NCBI RefSeq assembly: GCF_019823105.1
Contig: NZ_CP081959.1
Span: 62,001-126,000 of the forward strand
Direction: 5' to 3'
Origin: Halobaculum magnesiiphilum
GTDB taxonomy: Archaea; Halobacteriota; Halobacteria; Halobacteriales; Haloferacaceae
DNA length: 64,000 bases
Shown here: piece after piece, positions 17,789 through 51,136 of the stretch
Layout of the letters: the number at the start of each line of letters is the position of its first letter
Position numbering within the stretch: the first letter of the stretch is position 1
Notes under the pieces: model-generated
What the model was told of the DNA's origin: nothing
The model's input: only the letters and a program-made list of their open reading frames with translations
Database searches by the model: none
Made by a program: the position numbers and the translations under genes

Positions 17789-19009
17789 TCAGTACTCTAC
17801 TACTGGCTGAACCGGCATTCGTTCAAGACGGCGATGACATGGGATACAGAGTGTCAGGAGGTTACTTGGAACATTTGAGTCCTCAACTGACTGAGTCGGA
17901 TCATTATAGAACTGTCGCCGTGGAATCCGGTGGTGAACCGGGAGATCACGTCCGAACTGGTCTCGGTGTGTATCGCGGTCCATACCGCAGCGCAGGCAGG
18001 ACTCGTTGTCACGGGTGATGATCTCCTCACGAATCTGTGGCCAGTTCGAGCCAAACGGAACTGTCTCAGTATCTGACTGACGGTAGTTTTCTAGATAGTC
18101 CGGGTCGGCCGCTTGAAGGGCTGTTCGCCACGTTCCGAATTCACGCTGATACGGATCGATGGTGAAATTCCCGTGTTCGTTCATTTCCGTCGTTGTCGGT
18201 GGATGGCCCAGCTCATTCGCAACAGCCCGCAGTTCGGCTAATAACTCCTCCCGTGGGATTCACCACCGCTCATTCGGCTCGAAGCCGTCAGCTCGGAGAG
18301 CTTCATTCCACGAACCGAATCGCTCCTGATAGACTGCTGCACTCCATTTCCCTTGGTTCCGCATCTCATCCTTCCGAGGGACATGGCTTAGATCTTCGGC
18401 GAGACTGTTGAGTTCGGATATCAGATCCTCCTCGCTCACATCCCATACGGAGTGGACTTCCAACCTCGCCTGCCGAAGAGCACGATTCCATGTTCCAAAC
18501 GCTCGCTTGTACGAATTCGTGGTGTAGGGGCCACTCCGGTCCATTTCATCTGTTGTGGGCGGTCGACCCAGTTTCTCAGCGAACCCCTGTAAGGCAGTAA
18601 TGAGTGTCTCTTCGGAGAGGTTCATTTCGACGTTCGGCTCAAAACCGGCCGCCCGTAGTGCTGAATTCCACCCTCCAAATCGCTTGCAGTATGTCTTCAC
18701 CGAATACTCTCCATGAGTACCGTATTCGCGCTCTGACGGAGTTCCACCTACGATGTCGGCAACTGATTTGAGATCAGTAAGAAGGTCCTCTTCGGGCGTC
18801 ACTGGTCGTCCGTTTGGATCGTTCGTTCCGGTTTGAAGTCCGGCAGCCTCGAGTGCGCTATTCCACGACCCGAACCGATTTCCGTACGTCTTCGAAGCAT
18901 GAGGTCCTGAATCGTCCATCTCACTCTGCGACGGGGGCCGACCGAGTTTCTCAGCGAACTTCTGGAGCCGATTGAGGAGTTCATCGTCTGAGTACAGCTT
19001 CGTGCCCAT
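17789..19009 (-). pseudogene. HNH endonuclease with homing-associated repeats, split by an in-frame TGA
   Basis: One frame of 407 codons is broken by a single TGA at 18260-18262, after GFEPNERW. Before it lie four repeats of about 55 residues with the homing-endonuclease-associated pattern (LGRPPxxxEM...YxxRFGxWNxALxxAG). After it the same frame continues through another repeat (LGHPPTTTEMNEHG) into an HNH domain: CLRCGMDRDTH, VHHRIPRRQF and LCIPCHRRLE. The two pieces also stand as separate frames, 18260-19009 (repeats only) and 17789-18184 (HNH). Full-length paralogues at 20709-21791 and 48605-49738 show the intact arrangement. Unlike them it lacks the N-terminal C2H2 finger. Recently inactivated, or made as a repeat-only protein. 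Confidence 0.82.
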
Positions 19010-19100
19010 GATCTCTGAGGGGGTTGAGTCACTCAGTTTGGATCTGGCTCAGTATTTGAATGTCCGCTCTGGTGTCTGTGATCCGTCATCGATGTTGGCT

Positions 19101-19484: not shown

Positions 19485-20642
19485 TCAGACCATCGCCTCT
19501 AGGAACCGCTCACGCAGCACGTTCTCGCGCTCTTCGAACTGCTCGACTTTCTCCTGCAGGTCCTCGCTGACGCGCTCGATGCTCGCCAGCGCTCGTTCGC
19601 CGGCCAGCGAGGCCTGTGACCCGTCGTCACCGTCCGCCTCTAACTGCTGCTCGTAGGCCTGCTCGACGCGCTCGATCGTGCCTTCCGGATTGAACAGGAT
19701 GTCGTTGGCGATGCGGACGTACTGATCGAGGGATGCCCCCTCTTTCCCCTGGAAGAAGTGGGTGAGGGCGTACGTCGCGCCGGAATGCAGCGTCCACATA
19801 TCGATCTCGAAGGGGGACGCCGCATTGGCTTCTGCATCGCCGGCGGCACGCTCGGCCAGGTAGTCCGGGAACCCCAGCAGGGTGTAGAACTCCGTGACGG
19901 TGAACGGGAGTTCGGAGAAGTCGAGGTCGATGTCCTGGGCGTCCCGGATGAACTCGAAGAGGTCATCGGCGACGAGTTCGACCTGTGCGAGGAGTTCCTC
20001 CCACCAGGTCCGGAAGTTCCGGACGTCGCCGACGTGTTTGATGACCTCCTTGTCGGTGAGCGATCGCATCGTGTTCGAGCAGTAGCCATCCTGAGCGAAC
20101 CCCTCCACGTAGACGGCGTGCTCGCCGAAGAAGTCGTAGCCCGACGTGACGCCCATCGTAATCGGGTCCGACCGACCGGGAAGGCGCACCTCGAGGCCGT
20201 CGAACATGATGTCCATATGGACTTCGCCGCCGCCCCGGTAGCGCCGAATCTCGCCGAACATCACCTCGCCCAGCGGCGTCCCGTCGATGGTCTCCTCGCG
20301 GAGGACCTCCTCTAGCGGCCCGTAGACGTCGACCGGGTTGATGATCGAGTACGAGTCAGTCGGGATATGGAATAGCGACTCCGTCTCGGTGTCCCCATCC
20401 GCTTCTGCTTGCAATCGCGACGGCTCGACGATTGCGTTGAACCGCTCGGTTTCGACCCACTCGTCGGTGTACGGGTTGCGATATGCGACTGCTGTATCGA
20501 CCGCCTGTGGGAGGTTTCGAATCGCCTCACTGAAGCTGATTGGTTCGGGACCTCCGTATTGCTCGGCGTACCACTCGGGTAGTTCAGTCTCGGTTCGCCC
20601 ATCGAGGCCTGCGAAGACCGTAGCTTCCTCTGGGTCTTTCAT
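19485..20642 (-). CDS. DUF932-like plasmid/phage protein
   Basis: 385 residues. Segments such as HAVYVEGFAQDGYCSNTM, MDIMFDGLEVRLPGRSDP and a late aromatic-rich region (WTLHSGATYALTHFFQGKEG) match the plasmid- and phage-borne DUF932 type. Function unknown; DUF932 proteins have been linked to plasmid maintenance and recombination. The C-terminus is a charged coiled coil. The ATG at 20642 begins MKDPEEATVFAGLDGRT, a start that recurs in the truncated copy at 21799-21993. Confidence 0.72.
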   Translation of the reverse strand: MKDPEEATVFAGLDGRTETELPEWYAEQYGGPEPISFSEAIRNLPQAVDTAVAYRNPYTDEWVETERFNAIVEPSRLQAEADGDTETESLFHIPTDSYSIINPVDVYGPLEEVLREETIDGTPLGEVMFGEIRRYRGGGEVHMDIMFDGLEVRLPGRSDPITMGVTSGYDFFGEHAVYVEGFAQDGYCSNTMRSLTDKEVIKHVGDVRNFRTWWEELLAQVELVADDLFEFIRDAQDIDLDFSELPFTVTEFYTLLGFPDYLAERAAGDAEANAASPFEIDMWTLHSGATYALTHFFQGKEGASLDQYVRIANDILFNPEGTIERVEQAYEQQLEADGDDGSQASLAGERALASIERVSEDLQEKVEQFEERENVLRERFLEAMV

Positions 20643-20708: not shown

Positions 20709-21791
20709 CTACGACTGTCGGCACTCGTGAGCTTGGATTCGCTCTGGCAGCCCGGCTTTTCCACAGAGCGGACACTCGACGAGTGGTGTCGGCGGAAGAT
20801 TCTGCCACGCAGCAAGGGCTCCTCGGAGATGGGCTTTCGTCTCTGCCGACTCGGCGCTTTCGAGGCCACTGTTGAGGTGCCTCCGGAGTCGTTCTCTGTT
20901 CGTGAGATCGCCTGGATCGGGCGTCAGGATAGGCTCGTCTGTCCGTTGCATTTGAATCACGAGGGGTTGCCCCTCATCCTCTCGTAGGGGGAGAGCAACA
21001 CCCTCCAGCCCTCCTCGCTTTGGTGGCTGGGTGGCGTCGATAATCGTATCCAATCGCTGCGGGGCGACGGCTTCCCAGATGAGATGATGCTTCGAACAGA
21101 CCGTCACGAGATTCGAGACTCGATTCGCCTGTTCGTGGTCAAACTGCCCATCGGGGGTGACAAAGAACTTCCGCGGGACCAAATGATGGACAGAGATGTC
21201 CTTCCCAACTTGCTCTTGATGATCCGCTTGGGTAATCCCACACCACGGCGTTTGGCACTGGAAGTCATCACGTTCCAGTGCTTGCCGCCGTTTCTCCGGC
21301 CAATTTGGCCCGTACGGAATCTCTGAGCGTTCTTGATAGGACCGTGGTTGTGAGAAGCCAGCTTCGTTGAGTGCCTCTTTCCACCCGCCAAACCGGTGGT
21401 CATACGTCCATCTATGATACTCCCCAATCCGATCCATCTCCCCGCTCGATGGCGGGCGACCGAGCTGCTCCGCAAGGCGGTCTATCTCATCCAACAGGTC
21501 CTGATCGGTGAGTCGGAATTTCCGGTTTGGAGCGTAGCCAGCCTCACGAAGCGCCTCGTTCCAACTCCCGAATTTGTTCTGACAAACGCGCTGAGAATAC
21601 TCTCCGTGCTCGCTCATCTCTTTCGCTGTCGGCGGTTTTCCTAATTTATCTGCGACACGCTGAATGTCGTCGAGAATTATGTCCGCGTCTGTTACGATCT
21701 GGTCGCGACGATGGACCGCGGTTACGTGGCCACCCAACTCGTTGGAGGTCGCAAAAGACTCGCCACAGTGGTCACAAATATGGTCGGTCAA
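20709..21791 (-). CDS. C2H2 zinc-finger/homing-repeat/HNH protein with fused C-terminal domain
   Basis: 360 residues from a TTG at 21791, chosen because GGAGGTGA lies 8 bases upstream and no ATG gives a sensible N-terminus. Order: C2H2 finger (CDHCGESFATSNELGGHVTAVH), two homing-associated repeats, an HNH domain (CQTPWCG, VHHLVPRKFF, CSKHHLIW), a linker, and a C-terminal helical/zinc segment (LPPTPLVECPLCGKAGLPERIQAH). That last domain exists as a separate gene at 48327-48539. Predicted DNA-binding endonuclease; the target is unknown. It starts 8 bases after the stop of a truncated DUF932 copy. Confidence 0.78.
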   Translation of the reverse strand: MTDHICDHCGESFATSNELGGHVTAVHRRDQIVTDADIILDDIQRVADKLGKPPTAKEMSEHGEYSQRVCQNKFGSWNEALREAGYAPNRKFRLTDQDLLDEIDRLAEQLGRPPSSGEMDRIGEYHRWTYDHRFGGWKEALNEAGFSQPRSYQERSEIPYGPNWPEKRRQALERDDFQCQTPWCGITQADHQEQVGKDISVHHLVPRKFFVTPDGQFDHEQANRVSNLVTVCSKHHLIWEAVAPQRLDTIIDATQPPKRGGLEGVALPLREDEGQPLVIQMQRTDEPILTPDPGDLTNRERLRRHLNSGLESAESAETKAHLRGALAAWQNLPPTPLVECPLCGKAGLPERIQAHECRQS

Positions 21792-21798
21792 AGCTCCG

Positions 21799-21993
21799 TC
21801 ACCTCCCTCCGCCGTTCCCCCGTAATGCGTTATAAACTCTCGACCCGCTGAGTGACTGTAGAAGATCACGAACCGCCTCGGCAAAGGTCAGAGGGTCTGC
21901 ATCCCCGTGTCGCTCTCGGTACCACTCGGGTAGTTCGGTGTCGGTACGTCCATCGACGCCAGCGAAGATGGTTCTGGACTCTGGATCTTTCAT
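21799..21993 (-). pseudogene. Truncated duplicate of the DUF932-like gene start
   Basis: 64 codons. The first 45 or so (MKDPESRTIFAGVDGRTDTE, then LPEWYRERHG...) parallel the start of the DUF932-like protein at 20642 almost position by position. The similarity then stops and the frame runs out into unrelated residues before the HNH gene. Hairpin element 7 precedes it as in the full gene. It is best read as a duplicated 5' end left by recombination that placed the HNH gene downstream. Confidence 0.72.
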
Positions 21994-22044
21994 TGCAGTC
22001 ACCTCACTTCAGGAGTCCTCGTCGACGTGCGACTGCATCGTCTC

Positions 22045-26511: not shown

Positions 26512-26543
26512 GACCCCCGCACCCCTCTCAGGGGTTCAACAAA
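26512..26543 (-). promoter_or_regulatory. Hairpin leader element 8 (DUF6166-like gene)
   Basis: Coding strand: TTTGTTGA, arms ACCCC and GGGGT, loop TGAGAGGGGTGC. It lies 23 bases before the start at 26489. Confidence 0.68.
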
Positions 26544-40747: not shown

Positions 40748-40785
40748 CGGGGTCGCCCCCGCACCCCTGTCGGGGGCGATAAACC
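40748..40785 (-). promoter_or_regulatory. Hairpin leader element 14
   Basis: Coding strand: TTTATCG, arms CCCCC and GGGGG, loop GACAGGGGTGC. Thirteen bases before the start at 40735. Confidence 0.72.
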
Positions 40786-48031: not shown

Positions 48032-48326
48032 CAGTTATAGCACAATTAGAATTCACCTCCAATAGAACTACTGAAACAGACAGTCACTCCCAAGATGCCT
48101 GCGATAGGCCGCTGATTAGATTACGTTGCAGAGAGCGTTAGTTCACGGTCCAGTGGTTTGCAACAGTCCAGGTATTCATCCAGTGGTTCATTCCTATCGA
48201 CTCAGGTGTGGATATCTCCACTCTCGCTCTTCGCGTCCTCACGGATGTTCTGGAGAACTTGCTGTTTATCCCTTGATTCCGGATCAGAGGTTTTGACCTT
48301 CATACCTATCAGTAATACCAGCTCTA
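48032..48326. other. Gap with no recognised feature
   Basis: 295 bases between the lipoprotein start and the small zinc protein stop. I see no gene, clear repeat or RNA here. Confidence 0.4.
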
Positions 48327-48539
48327 TTATTTTGTGCATCGGTGCTGTTGAATCCGCTCTGGCAGTCCGACTTTTCCACAGACGGGACACTCTCGCAGCG
48401 GTGTCGGCGGCAGGTCGTTCCAAGCGTCTAGTGCGGCATCGAGCTGTGCTTCCACGATTGGTGAGTCGGTCGTGCGGTGGGCTTCGCGGAGGTGAATGCG
48501 AAGCCGTTCACGGGCCGTGAGTGTCGTGTCATCGGTCAT
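48327..48539 (-). CDS. Small zinc-finger protein, stand-alone form of an HNH-fused domain
   Basis: 70 residues: helical N-terminus (LTARERLRIHLREAHRTT) and a C-terminal C2H2-like zinc site LPPTPLRECPVCGKVGLPER followed by IQQHRC. The same domain forms the C-terminus of the HNH protein at 20709-21791. Here it is separate and sits directly downstream of another HNH gene, so the two proteins probably act together. Start at 48539 follows hairpin element 17. Confidence 0.72.
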   Translation of the reverse strand: MTDDTTLTARERLRIHLREAHRTTDSPIVEAQLDAALDAWNDLPPTPLRECPVCGKVGLPERIQQHRCTK

Positions 48540-48557
48540 AGTAGGACGGGAAGGTGG

Positions 48558-48591
48558 TGCCCCCGCTACCCATCGCTGGGGGCGATAAGCA
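48558..48591 (-). promoter_or_regulatory. Hairpin leader element 17
   Basis: Coding strand: TTATCG, arms GCCCCC and GGGGGC (perfect 6 bp), loop AGCGATGGGTAGC. The loop has GGGTA instead of GGGTG. Nineteen bases before the start at 48539. Confidence 0.7.
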
Positions 48592-48604
48592 CCACCGGAC
48601 GCGG

Positions 48605-49738
48605 TTAGCGAATATCCGGCTGGAGCGGGGCGAACTCCTCCCACATCGTATGGTGGCGCTGACAGAGCGTGACCAGGTTCTCAAGCCGATTCGCCCGTTC
48701 GTAGTCGAGGACGCCGTCGGCATCGATGAATACGCCAAGCGGCGTAATGTGGTGGACGTTCAGGTCACGGTCCCAGCGTTCCTGGTGGGTCTCGCGGCCG
48801 ATCGGACAGCCCGGCATCTGGCACTCGAAGCCGTCCCGTTCCAGCGCACGCTTGCGCTGTCTGTACCAGTTCGGTCCGTACGAAATGTCTCCGTAGCCGC
48901 CCTTCCAAAGTGGATGCTCTGGGCCGCTTGGCCGGCCGGGATACTCGAACCCGGCCGCTTCGATGGCGTCTTGCCAGGTCCCATACCGGCGGGCATAGGA
49001 TCCAACTGAGTAGCGACCAGAGTCACGCATCTCGATAGTTGATGGGACGTGGCCTAGCTCATCGACTAAGCGCTCGATCTCCCGATGGAGCTGTTCTTCA
49101 CTGACACTCCATTGTTTGTGGGGTTCGAACCCTGCACGGCGCAACGCACGATTCCAGCGGCCGAAGCATCGCTGGGCGACTTTCACCGACCACGCTCCGT
49201 GCTGTTCCATTTCTTGGGCCTTCGGTGGTCGTCCGAGTTCTGCGGCGAGGTTCTGAATCTCCTCGATGACATCCTCCTTTGTGGCGGTCCGCTGTGTGGT
49301 CGTCTCTAAGTTGGCTTCTCTGAGGCCCTCGTTCCACGACCCGAAATGAGTCTGGACTGCGTTGGCCGAGACACGCCCCAATTCTCGCCACTCATTTCGT
49401 GAGGGTGAATGGCCGATCTGGCTGGCGACTCGTTGTAGCTCCTCAATGATCTCTGCGTCGCTATATCCGTTTGTTCGAGGTTCAAGTCCGGCAGCTTCCA
49501 ATCCCTCGTCCCAGCTCCCAAACGTTGAGCGCACTGCGCCTTTTGTGAATTCAGTATCTTCTTCGATCTCCGATTGCTTTGGAACTCGCCCCTTCTCTTC
49601 GGCTAGTCGCTGCAGTTCGTCGATGATCGTTTCAGTAGGTATCGATACCTGATGAGAACGCATATGGCCGGCAATCTCGACGTTCGTTTCGAACGATTCC
49701 CCGCAGATGTCGCACGTGTAGTCTCCTTCGACTTTCAT
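48605..49738 (-). CDS. C2H2 zinc-finger/homing-repeat/HNH endonuclease-like protein
   Basis: 377 residues and the most complete of three paralogues. C2H2 finger CDICGESFETNVEIAGHMRSH (residues about 8-28), four homing-associated repeats of about 55 residues, then an HNH domain with CQMPGCPIGRETHQERW, VHHITPLGVF and LCQRHHTMW. Both HNH metal-site His and zinc-site Cys residues are present, so it could cleave DNA. Start at 49738 chosen next to the finger and hairpin element 18. The small zinc protein at 48327 lies just downstream. Confidence 0.82.
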   Translation of the reverse strand: MKVEGDYTCDICGESFETNVEIAGHMRSHQVSIPTETIIDELQRLAEEKGRVPKQSEIEEDTEFTKGAVRSTFGSWDEGLEAAGLEPRTNGYSDAEIIEELQRVASQIGHSPSRNEWRELGRVSANAVQTHFGSWNEGLREANLETTTQRTATKEDVIEEIQNLAAELGRPPKAQEMEQHGAWSVKVAQRCFGRWNRALRRAGFEPHKQWSVSEEQLHREIERLVDELGHVPSTIEMRDSGRYSVGSYARRYGTWQDAIEAAGFEYPGRPSGPEHPLWKGGYGDISYGPNWYRQRKRALERDGFECQMPGCPIGRETHQERWDRDLNVHHITPLGVFIDADGVLDYERANRLENLVTLCQRHHTMWEEFAPLQPDIR

Positions 49739-49758
49739 GCGTAGCTCCGAGCGTGGGC

Positions 49759-49790
49759 ACGCCCGCACCCCTCGTGGGGTGGGACAAACA
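49759..49790 (-). promoter_or_regulatory. Hairpin leader element 18
   Basis: Coding strand: TTTGTCCCACCCC, with GGGG and a further GGGCGTG returning; loop ACGAGGGGTGC. Twenty-one bases before the start at 49738. Confidence 0.6.
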
Positions 49791-49924
49791 CGCCCGGTCG
49801 CGCACCGTTTCCCCCGGTTTCAGGGATAAATCTCAGACCGACACCTGAGGTCGTGGCTGCGCGCGCAGCGAAGCGAGCACGGAGCGGAGGGTGGGGCGGT
49901 GGGGCTTGGGTCGGTCCGGCACAC

Positions 49925-49936
49925 AATAAAAAAGAA
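49925..49936 (-). terminator. T-rich terminator after the OB-fold gene
   Basis: On the minus strand CTTTTTTATTG follows the stop at 49952 within 16-27 bases. A T-run after a gene is the usual archaeal termination signal. Confidence 0.55.
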
Positions 49937-49951
49937 GGCTGCGCCGACTGG

Positions 49952-50878
49952 TTACTCGTCCCACCAGCGGCCGCGCTCCGGGAAATGAAGGGTCGACCAG
50001 CCAGTGACGGCTAGTGAGACGCGTCCTTCGTACCAATTTCTCGCCGCTCCGTGGATGCGCACCTGTTCGCCTTCCCTGATCCAGGGGGCATTCGACTTCT
50101 CCCAGATCGTCACTTTCGTTTTCCCACTGTCGTCCGCGATGAGTCCAACTTGAGCGATGGCTGGCGAATCACTATCCCAGAGCACTTCGATCCGACCTTC
50201 GATGCTCACCTCTTTGCGATCGACGTCCTCGAGAGCGTCGATGGGCACGGTGCCCCCCGGGGCCGTCTGCAACTCCTCGAACACCCGCACGACCGCACTC
50301 GTCATGTCCGTGCCGTCGACGACCGCTTCGGCCAGGCGTCGACTGATCGCCGCACGCGACCAGCCATCCAACCGCGTCGCGAGTCGGTCTGCCTCCGTGT
50401 TCACCGTCGCCAGTTGATCCTGGGAGAGCTCCGCTCGGGGATCCTCTCGTTCGGGGTCGGCCATCGGGTCCACGCTTGCGGCCCGCTTCTGGAACTCCCG
50501 CCGGCGCTTCGTGCTCCCTTGCGCGGCGACCTCCCGCGTGCGCTGCTCGCGACCGTCCTGCGTTCCCAGCTCGGCCTGGGCACTGATGCGCTCCAGTTCG
50601 GCTTCCCGCGCCCGAATGCGCTCCTCCTGTTCGAGGGTGACACCGTGAATCCGGTCTTCGCTCGTGTCCGCGATCCCGTCCGGATGGTTCGCATCCACCT
50701 TCGCCTGCGTCTCCTGCTCGACCGCGGCCTCGAACTCCGGCGTCTCGTCGACGACCGGGAAGCCATCTTCATCGACCGCCTGACCGCCCGCTTTCTCGAA
50801 TGCCTGTTCATCGACCGTAACGACCTTGCGACTCGCTCTCGCTCGCGCCTTCGCGAGCGCACTACCGGGCGCGAGCAA
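49952..50878 (-). CDS. OB-fold single-strand-DNA-binding-like protein
   Basis: 308 residues if a TTG at 50878 is the start; no ATG or GTG offers a better one, so the N-terminus is uncertain. The N-terminal half is acidic and coiled (TLEQEERIRAREAELERISAQ). The C-terminal third is an OB fold of RPA/SSB type: VSIEGRIEVLWDSDSPAIAQVG, KVTIWEKSNAPWIREGEQVRI, HGAARNWYEGRVSLAV. Predicted to bind single-stranded DNA during plasmid replication or transfer. Downstream of the 56-residue gene and Doc toxin. Confidence 0.7.
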   Translation of the reverse strand: MLAPGSALAKARARASRKVVTVDEQAFEKAGGQAVDEDGFPVVDETPEFEAAVEQETQAKVDANHPDGIADTSEDRIHGVTLEQEERIRAREAELERISAQAELGTQDGREQRTREVAAQGSTKRRREFQKRAASVDPMADPEREDPRAELSQDQLATVNTEADRLATRLDGWSRAAISRRLAEAVVDGTDMTSAVVRVFEELQTAPGGTVPIDALEDVDRKEVSIEGRIEVLWDSDSPAIAQVGLIADDSGKTKVTIWEKSNAPWIREGEQVRIHGAARNWYEGRVSLAVTGWSTLHFPERGRWWDE

Positions 50879-50965
50879 GAGCGCGCCTGCATGACGAATG
50901 AGTTAGTTTCCGATCACTGATCGCCAGTCACGGACGATGCCGCATTTGAAAGGACGGAAAGGTAG

Positions 50966-51136
50966 TTACTCGTCTTCGAGGGCTGCGTAGATCTCCGCGT
51001 GACGGCGTCCATCGAGCTTCCCCATCGAGAGAGCGATCGCGTGACGTTCGGCGTCGCTCTCGGCCGCCTGATACCGCTCGTACAGCTGGCGGACCTCGTC
51101 GTCGACCGCCGTCGAGGAATCGGTGCTAGACGCCAT
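50966..51136 (-). CDS. 56-residue protein
   Basis: Short gene with an ATG at 51136 and TAA at 50966. MASSTDSSTAVDDEVRQLYE continues as an acidic helical peptide (RYQAAESDAERHAIALSMG) ending in AALEDE. Composition matches haloarchaeal proteins and the frame ends 33 bases from the Doc gene stop, so it may be co-transcribed. No family recognised. Confidence 0.5.
   Translation of the reverse strand: MASSTDSSTAVDDEVRQLYERYQAAESDAERHAIALSMGKLDGRRHAEIYAALEDE

Follow-up and report, generated by a model that had tools for sequence, protein, structure and literature searches.

In phage T4, segG encodes a free-standing (intronless) homing endonuclease that lies between genes 32 and 59 and has gene 32 as its target, and Gp32 is named as an SSB (PMC2988022). 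In phages such as ICP1, homing endonuclease genes cluster near essential and replisome genes, and variable endonuclease genes are found in one and the same locus (PMC10448857). A free-standing LAGLIDADG gene is also present in the glycosylation islands of Haloferax, where it was suggested as a driver of gene conversion (PMC5867893). Halobacterium possesses Rfa5 and Rfa6, minichromosomal homologues of a type that is about 300 aa long, has one OB fold and is encoded on minichromosomes or plasmids; their deletion leads to mitomycin C sensitivity (PMC5924565).

We have analyzed 64,000 nucleotides of Halobaculum magnesiiphilum DNA (the window), which lie on a 271.5-kb contig. In this stretch an HNH gene reads through into a small zinc protein, and a second HNH gene is followed by a separate gene for a related small protein (Table 1). 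The sequence-only reading of the window had taken fusion in one place and adjacency in the other as good evidence that the two proteins work together. Comparison with related haloarchaeal loci leads us to a different view, namely that the HNH genes are probably free-standing homing endonucleases occupying intergenic slots just ahead of a gene for a small zinc protein that has its own job.

Table 1. Coordinates of the features discussed in the text, given as positions of the window
Feature	Position	Strand	Remarks
phrog_13083-family protein, downstream of the class II small gene	19485..20642	-	E 1.9e-144; ATG at 20642
HNH protein (two PF18780 repeats + HNH) reading through into the small zinc protein	20709..21791	-	
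Small zinc protein, class II copy, now C-terminal domain of the fusion; likely own ATG kept	20709..20951	-	
CAA codon where 10/13 aligned relatives have the HNH stop TAA	20967..20969	-	DNA alignment of 14 class II loci; named loci
ORF, N-terminal part related to the start of the phrog_13083 protein	21799..22002	-	
Stand-alone 70-aa small zinc protein, class I copy	48327..48539	-	
HNH protein, four PF18780 repeats, between SSB/RPA-like gene and small gene	48605..49768	-	
Conserved intergenic element, just 3' of the SSB/RPA-like gene	49849..49925	-	
SSB/RPA-like protein, one OB fold	49952..50878	-	Rfa5/Rfa6 type by inference; start codon uncertain

Results

Two HNH genes and one small zinc protein

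The open frame of the fused gene extends from 20709 to 21884 (minus strand). A TTG start at 21791 is supported, because aligned relatives have TTG or GTG at this position. A homing-type nuclease domain is recognizable by the homing-endonuclease-associated repeat PF18780 (E 2e-41 and 6e-78), of which the fused protein has two copies (Pfam, E 2e-41). Pfam detects its HNH domain weakly (HNH_2, E 0.009, below cut-off) and PHROGs more clearly (E 1e-17), and its N-terminus is C2H2-like (PF13894, E 2e-4, again below the Pfam cut-off). The C-terminal 67 aa are 57% identical to the stand-alone small protein (E 1.4e-20, reverse search 1.9e-20), a match that in sequence terms is far beyond chance. An ATG at 20951-20949 is the likely own start of the small protein within the fused gene. 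The fused part thus appears to be the whole small protein, with a tail of about 80 aa rather than the 65 given before. The stand-alone gene starts 65 nt past the stop of the second HNH gene and hence lies, as had been stated, directly downstream of another HNH paralogue.

This genome has four PF18780 genes, and the small protein accompanies the two listed in Table 1. A third PF18780 gene (17792-19048, minus strand), which follows the phrog_13083 gene, is interrupted by one in-frame stop that leaves open frames of 262 and 156 codons; its counterparts in four other loci (L066, L070, L084, L093) are single ORFs of 411-451 codons. A hairpin motif of the form TTTRT + CCCC-loop-GGGG occurs three times on the minus strand (26516-26543, 40758-40783, 49762-49788) and not at all in 20 first-order Markov sequences. 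The third copy lies at the start of the class I HNH gene. A common promoter-hairpin motif 5' of the small gene was considered and dropped (0/94).

A family of small zinc proteins

The small protein matches no Pfam family at E <0.9, no NCBIfam family at 0.1 and no PHROG at 0.01. It is 70 aa long when standing alone; in class II, with the ATG as start, it would have about 80. In 27 members CPxC, a G, an H and the final C are invariant and LPERI is nearly so. There is a single CPxCG, and the remaining candidate ligands are H and C. A confident AlphaFold2 model (pLDDT 90) has helices at residues 8-22 and 26-40 (numbered without the first Met), followed by a short strand-strand-helix knuckle; the protein is therefore predicted to be a helical hairpin with a C2HC zinc knuckle. 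Structural searches with this model gave no informative relative (Foldseek, best E 2.6; VIA, best Z 4.8 over 55 residues), and the best hit of a PDB sequence search was a designed helical repeat protein (E 0.0095). No clear pattern was seen when the last cysteine was considered as a module edge.

The small protein is present in 84 of 392 genomes of the order. It was found in 35 of 72,556 plasmid records, every one haloarchaeal, and at 27 of these 35 sites no gene is annotated in the collection's gene table, which is incomplete. Phage records gave no match, and none of eight pattern matches in viral contigs is a relative. Median dN/dS values of 0.15 in class I (23 loci) and 0.26 in class II (13 loci) speak for a genuine gene on which purifying selection acts. 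The gene is also intact in 36 of 41 regions that have no modelled neighbour close upstream. The best reading is that the small protein has its own function and represents an unnamed zinc family. Since its gene adjoins SSB and PCNA genes, a role as accessory in DNA transactions is most likely. In three loci (L105, L110, L131) with the order TFB-PCNA-small, a PCNA sliding-clamp gene is adjoined or overlapped at its 3' end by the small gene, a position that suggests a role together with replication or repair factors.

An intergenic slot beside an SSB gene

The class I HNH gene lies behind an SSB-like ORF of 308 aa. Its OB fold scores below cut-off (E 8e-5), and its score against the replication factor A model (49 bits) is far below cut-off. 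It is 88% identical to a protein of Halobacterium salinarum pNRC200 over residues 19-308 and 80% identical to a pNRC100 protein. Judging from size and replicon, these matches should be Rfa5/Rfa6, and the product encoded here has the size, the OB fold and the replicon of that type.

A conserved element of about 77 nt lies shortly past the stop codon of SSB-like genes and also of genes identified by eye as TFB-like, with further sites at G000:C2:32982-33048 and in L192 and L193. It is present in all 16 genomes chosen for the search. Six inspected empty slots contain one copy each, in seven loci the element flanks the nuclease gene on both sides, and it lies behind the SSB gene in 33 of the best 57 listed SSB loci without a small gene. 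Rfam gave no match for it within 48200-51000. An integron-like reading was rejected, as the copies are found mainly behind SSB genes and some behind TFB-like genes.

To describe the surroundings of the small gene, 92 regions (small-gene match E <1e-8) were fetched together with the window's two; a set of 49 named loci overlaps with them in species. Single-linkage clustering of raw ORFs was too noisy and acidity-filtered gene maps were used instead, so that neighbour calls without HMM support are approximate. In the 92 regions the nearest modelled upstream neighbour on the same strand is an HNH gene in 35, a LAGLIDADG gene in 6, the SSB gene in 7, a PCNA gene in 2 and a phrog_13083-type gene in 1, while 41 have none. 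The 49 named loci have HNH in 27, LAGLIDADG in 6 and none in 16. The LAGLIDADG and PCNA labels are over the Pfam cut-offs in tested examples, as for one slot partner with LAGLIDADG_1 (PF00961, E 8e-11). For cluster C28, which precedes the small gene in L103 and L113, an HNH label was discarded, Pfam giving nothing at 1e-3 for L103. Adjacency to an HNH gene is thus recurrent. The idea that the proteins work together had been staked on the small gene not occurring mostly without an HNH partner; it stands without HNH directly upstream in 57 of the 92 regions, a majority, and in 22 of the 49 named loci, a minority.

Class I loci are arranged as SSB gene, slot and small gene; some slots are empty, and the others are occupied by an HNH gene of one of four types or by a LAGLIDADG gene. 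In some comparisons one insertion is all that separates an occupied allele from an empty one. The empty locus L041 differs from each of the LAGLIDADG loci L050 and L052 by one 858-bp insertion in the spacer, with flank blocks 80-97% identical in the comparison with L050, and the empty L083 differs from the HNH locus L046 by one of 1226 bp (flank blocks 71-81% identical). Two further empty/occupied pairs behave otherwise: L055/L057 does not align as a single insertion and L059/L058 aligned only at 51-68%. In L095 (and, by clustering only, in L109) the small gene is preceded at a distance of about 200 nt by a TnpB/OrfB-type nuclease gene, a third nuclease kind at this position. On pNRC100 of Halobacterium salinarum (L187) a split LAGLIDADG gene occupies the same slot, 127-786 nt after the SSB-like gene, where the annotation of the record shows a hypothetical protein encoded by the other strand.

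The class II pair has other surroundings. Its 404-aa downstream neighbour gave nothing above the Pfam cut-off; an assignment to DUF932 found no Pfam support and the protein is phrog_13083. The likeness of the small upstream ORF to this family stops at the left edge of the HNH cassette. In six other loci, too, the class II HNH gene has a phrog_13083-type fragment on its left. Three kinds of left context meet the pair at a sharp boundary, and on the right L076, L094 and L107 deviate. As both outer edges vary, the HNH-small pair may move as one unit.

Endonuclease and small gene are associated

The strongest alternative holds that the small protein is a true endonuclease accessory, be it a regulator, a specificity factor or a repair mediator, in a two-gene mobile unit of which the fusion is the covalent version. 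We regard this as unlikely, but several observations speak for it. An endonuclease is found in 28 of 35 SSB loci with the small gene and in 6 of the 57 best-scoring loci among the matches listed without it, with at most six candidates scored per genome (Fisher p 1e-11). Behind SSB genes, the small gene is broken in four of seven loci without an endonuclease and in two of 28 with one (p 0.009); one of the seven, L108, is an HMM call without Pfam match, and its omission gives four of six. Both p values overstate the case, because the rows are related and not independent. Five of the six endonuclease genes without small gene are short or split (four) or meet the contig end (L196). Further, the HNH gene is always on the strand of the small gene and ends 50-286 nt before the conserved domain (35 regions; distances run to the start of this domain and not to the ATG), and the variable edges of the class II pair point the same way.

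Against the accessory stands that 51 of the 92 regions have neither HNH nor LAGLIDADG directly upstream, and that the small gene stays intact in most regions without a modelled neighbour. One helper would moreover have to serve two unrelated nuclease folds. Apparently full-length endonucleases also occur without the small gene, namely L189, the only full-length ORF among the six, as well as L245 and L246 (L245-L247 were hand-picked and are outside the count of six in 57). The full-length L189 and the other five indicate that the slot is usable without the small gene.

The HNH types and the small protein do not co-vary either. In 22 HNH loci compared with the class I locus of the window, identities range over 40-95% for HNH, 50-93% for SSB (at some loci from partial genes) and 61-95% for the small protein, and the three sets of pairwise identities are uncorrelated (rho 0.03-0.05, 253 pairs). 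At a single-linkage threshold of 55% the HNH proteins form four groups. Where the HNH protein shares no more than 50% identity with that of the window (11 class I loci), the small protein is 81-95% identical in seven loci and 61-66% in four. Of 34 loci with HNH, LAGLIDADG or an empty slot, 28 have a small protein with an identity of 80% or more.

Loci with the same endonuclease type are more alike than those with other types just right of the endonuclease (medians 0.85 v 0.70). This holds for the first half of the small gene (0.87 v 0.75) and weakens in its second half (0.82 v 0.76), and beyond it they are at background (medians 0.62 v 0.62). On the SSB side the likeness is little increased nearby (0.76 v 0.72) but more so in the far 5' part (0.86 v 0.79); the latter rise is not predicted by a simple conversion tract, and the gradient is in this respect imperfect. 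The gradient also fits a two-gene unit. A selfish two-gene module, in which the zinc protein serves both HNH and LAGLIDADG enzymes, moves with them, decays when they are lost and is here joined covalently, seems to us a little more doubtful again than the accessory in general. A plasmid defence or addiction function of the HNH-small module would suit the plasmid-sized contigs and the variable nuclease ahead of a conserved small gene but is highly improbable. At E 1e-3 neither HNH nor small protein is matched by a PADLOC model, which taken by itself does not prove the point, whereas homing-endonuclease models of PADLOC match the LAGLIDADG slot partner. In addition, the small gene frequently stands alone.

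The fusion is best read as loss of a stop codon

In a DNA alignment of class II loci the HNH frame ends ahead of the small protein in 13 of 14. The shared TAA of Table 1 lies about 16 nt ahead of the likely ATG of the small protein in nine of the ten relatives that have it. In the window TAA is changed to CAA, and a 1-nt deletion has removed one C from the following run; together these changes bring HNH and small protein into one frame. Haloquadratum walsbyi J07HQW2 (L168), seen among 11 named class II-type loci inspected, has a shorter C run and frames in register, yet it keeps the TAA, which we count for an origin of the fusion by stop loss. The frames would have come into register before the HNH stop was lost.

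A junction query matched 54 of 170 genomes of the family, and the whole junction is open in this genome only; G435 spans it with one TAA. The longest other open frame around a small-protein match in 392 genomes has 233 aa, which is too short for a fused HNH protein. The fusion is best read, from these alignments, as loss of the HNH stop codon with the reading frames in register and the likely ATG of the small gene retained. As far as genomes can be compared, it is a one-genome event without recurrent domain architecture, and its product is most likely a read-through that the cell tolerates. An error in sequencing or assembly would account for a fusion seen in one genome only but is very improbable, as both a substitution and the loss of 1 nt would be required in comparison with most relatives, and H. 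walsbyi J07HQW2 also has the shorter C run.

Discussion

The data are consistent with a model in which the HNH genes live mostly on haloarchaeal plasmids in intergenic slots, in class I behind an Rfa5/6-type SSB gene and in class II mostly before a phrog_13083-family gene. The endonuclease would cut alleles that lack it and would be copied in by gene conversion. Conversion might drag the flank including the small gene along, and this may lead to co-inheritance of the two genes. Among the points against this model are that the presence of the endonuclease tracks the small gene strongly and that the HNH domain stays below the Pfam cut-off. A link of some kind may still exist, given how much more often endonucleases are found at loci with the small gene.

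What then becomes of the proposed cooperation? Its two supports fared differently. Adjacency was borne out in other genomes (35/92 regions, 27/49 named loci). The fusion was not, and its origin by stop loss makes it weak evidence for two cooperating proteins. The claim is weakened further because the slot is common to unrelated LAGLIDADG enzymes (6/92, 6/49) and to endonucleases without the small gene (6 of the best 57 listed). A functional cooperation of HNH and small zinc protein thus remains unproven, and if one of the partners resembles a mobile endonuclease, an argument from fusion plus adjacency may lead astray. The loci described here offer a haloarchaeal intergenic landing slot beside an SSB gene that is common to two unrelated homing-type nuclease families, and its occupied and empty alleles lend themselves to tests of homing. 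The small zinc protein itself is a widespread family without Pfam, NCBIfam or PHROG match that is mostly unannotated in the incomplete gene table of the plasmid collection.

Among the listed titles and abstract openings on haloarchaeal and archaeal homing endonucleases, which deal mainly with inteins, we did not find the SSB-side slot described. The small protein resembles the haloarchaeal C(P)XCG zinc-finger micro-proteins in being tiny and having a CPxCG knuckle; those proteins, described as shorter than 70 aa, have two C(P)XCG motifs, whereas the small protein has one CPxCG plus HxC (C2HC) (PMC11241148). The Haloferax island gene is likewise a free-standing homing-type endonuclease in haloarchaea, but it belongs to LAGLIDADG family 2 (pfam03161) and lies in a glycosylation island, while LAGLIDADG_1 (PF00961) and HNH_repeat enzymes are found here behind an SSB gene (PMC5867893). 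With the homing endonuclease genes of ICP1-type phages the slot shares that different endonucleases occur at one locus while the surroundings are conserved; those genes occupy phage introns and intergenic sites, and a zinc-protein neighbour is not described in the parts of that work considered here (PMC10448857). The nearest functional analogue appears to be segG of T4. SegG is a GIY-YIG enzyme, whereas the genes described here are haloarchaeal, lie mostly on plasmids and encode putative homing enzymes of the HNH_repeat and LAGLIDADG kinds. In both cases an endonuclease gene lies between conserved genes and beside an SSB gene, alleles with and without it exist, and the similarity pattern of the haloarchaeal loci partly resembles the co-conversion of flanks (PMC2988022).
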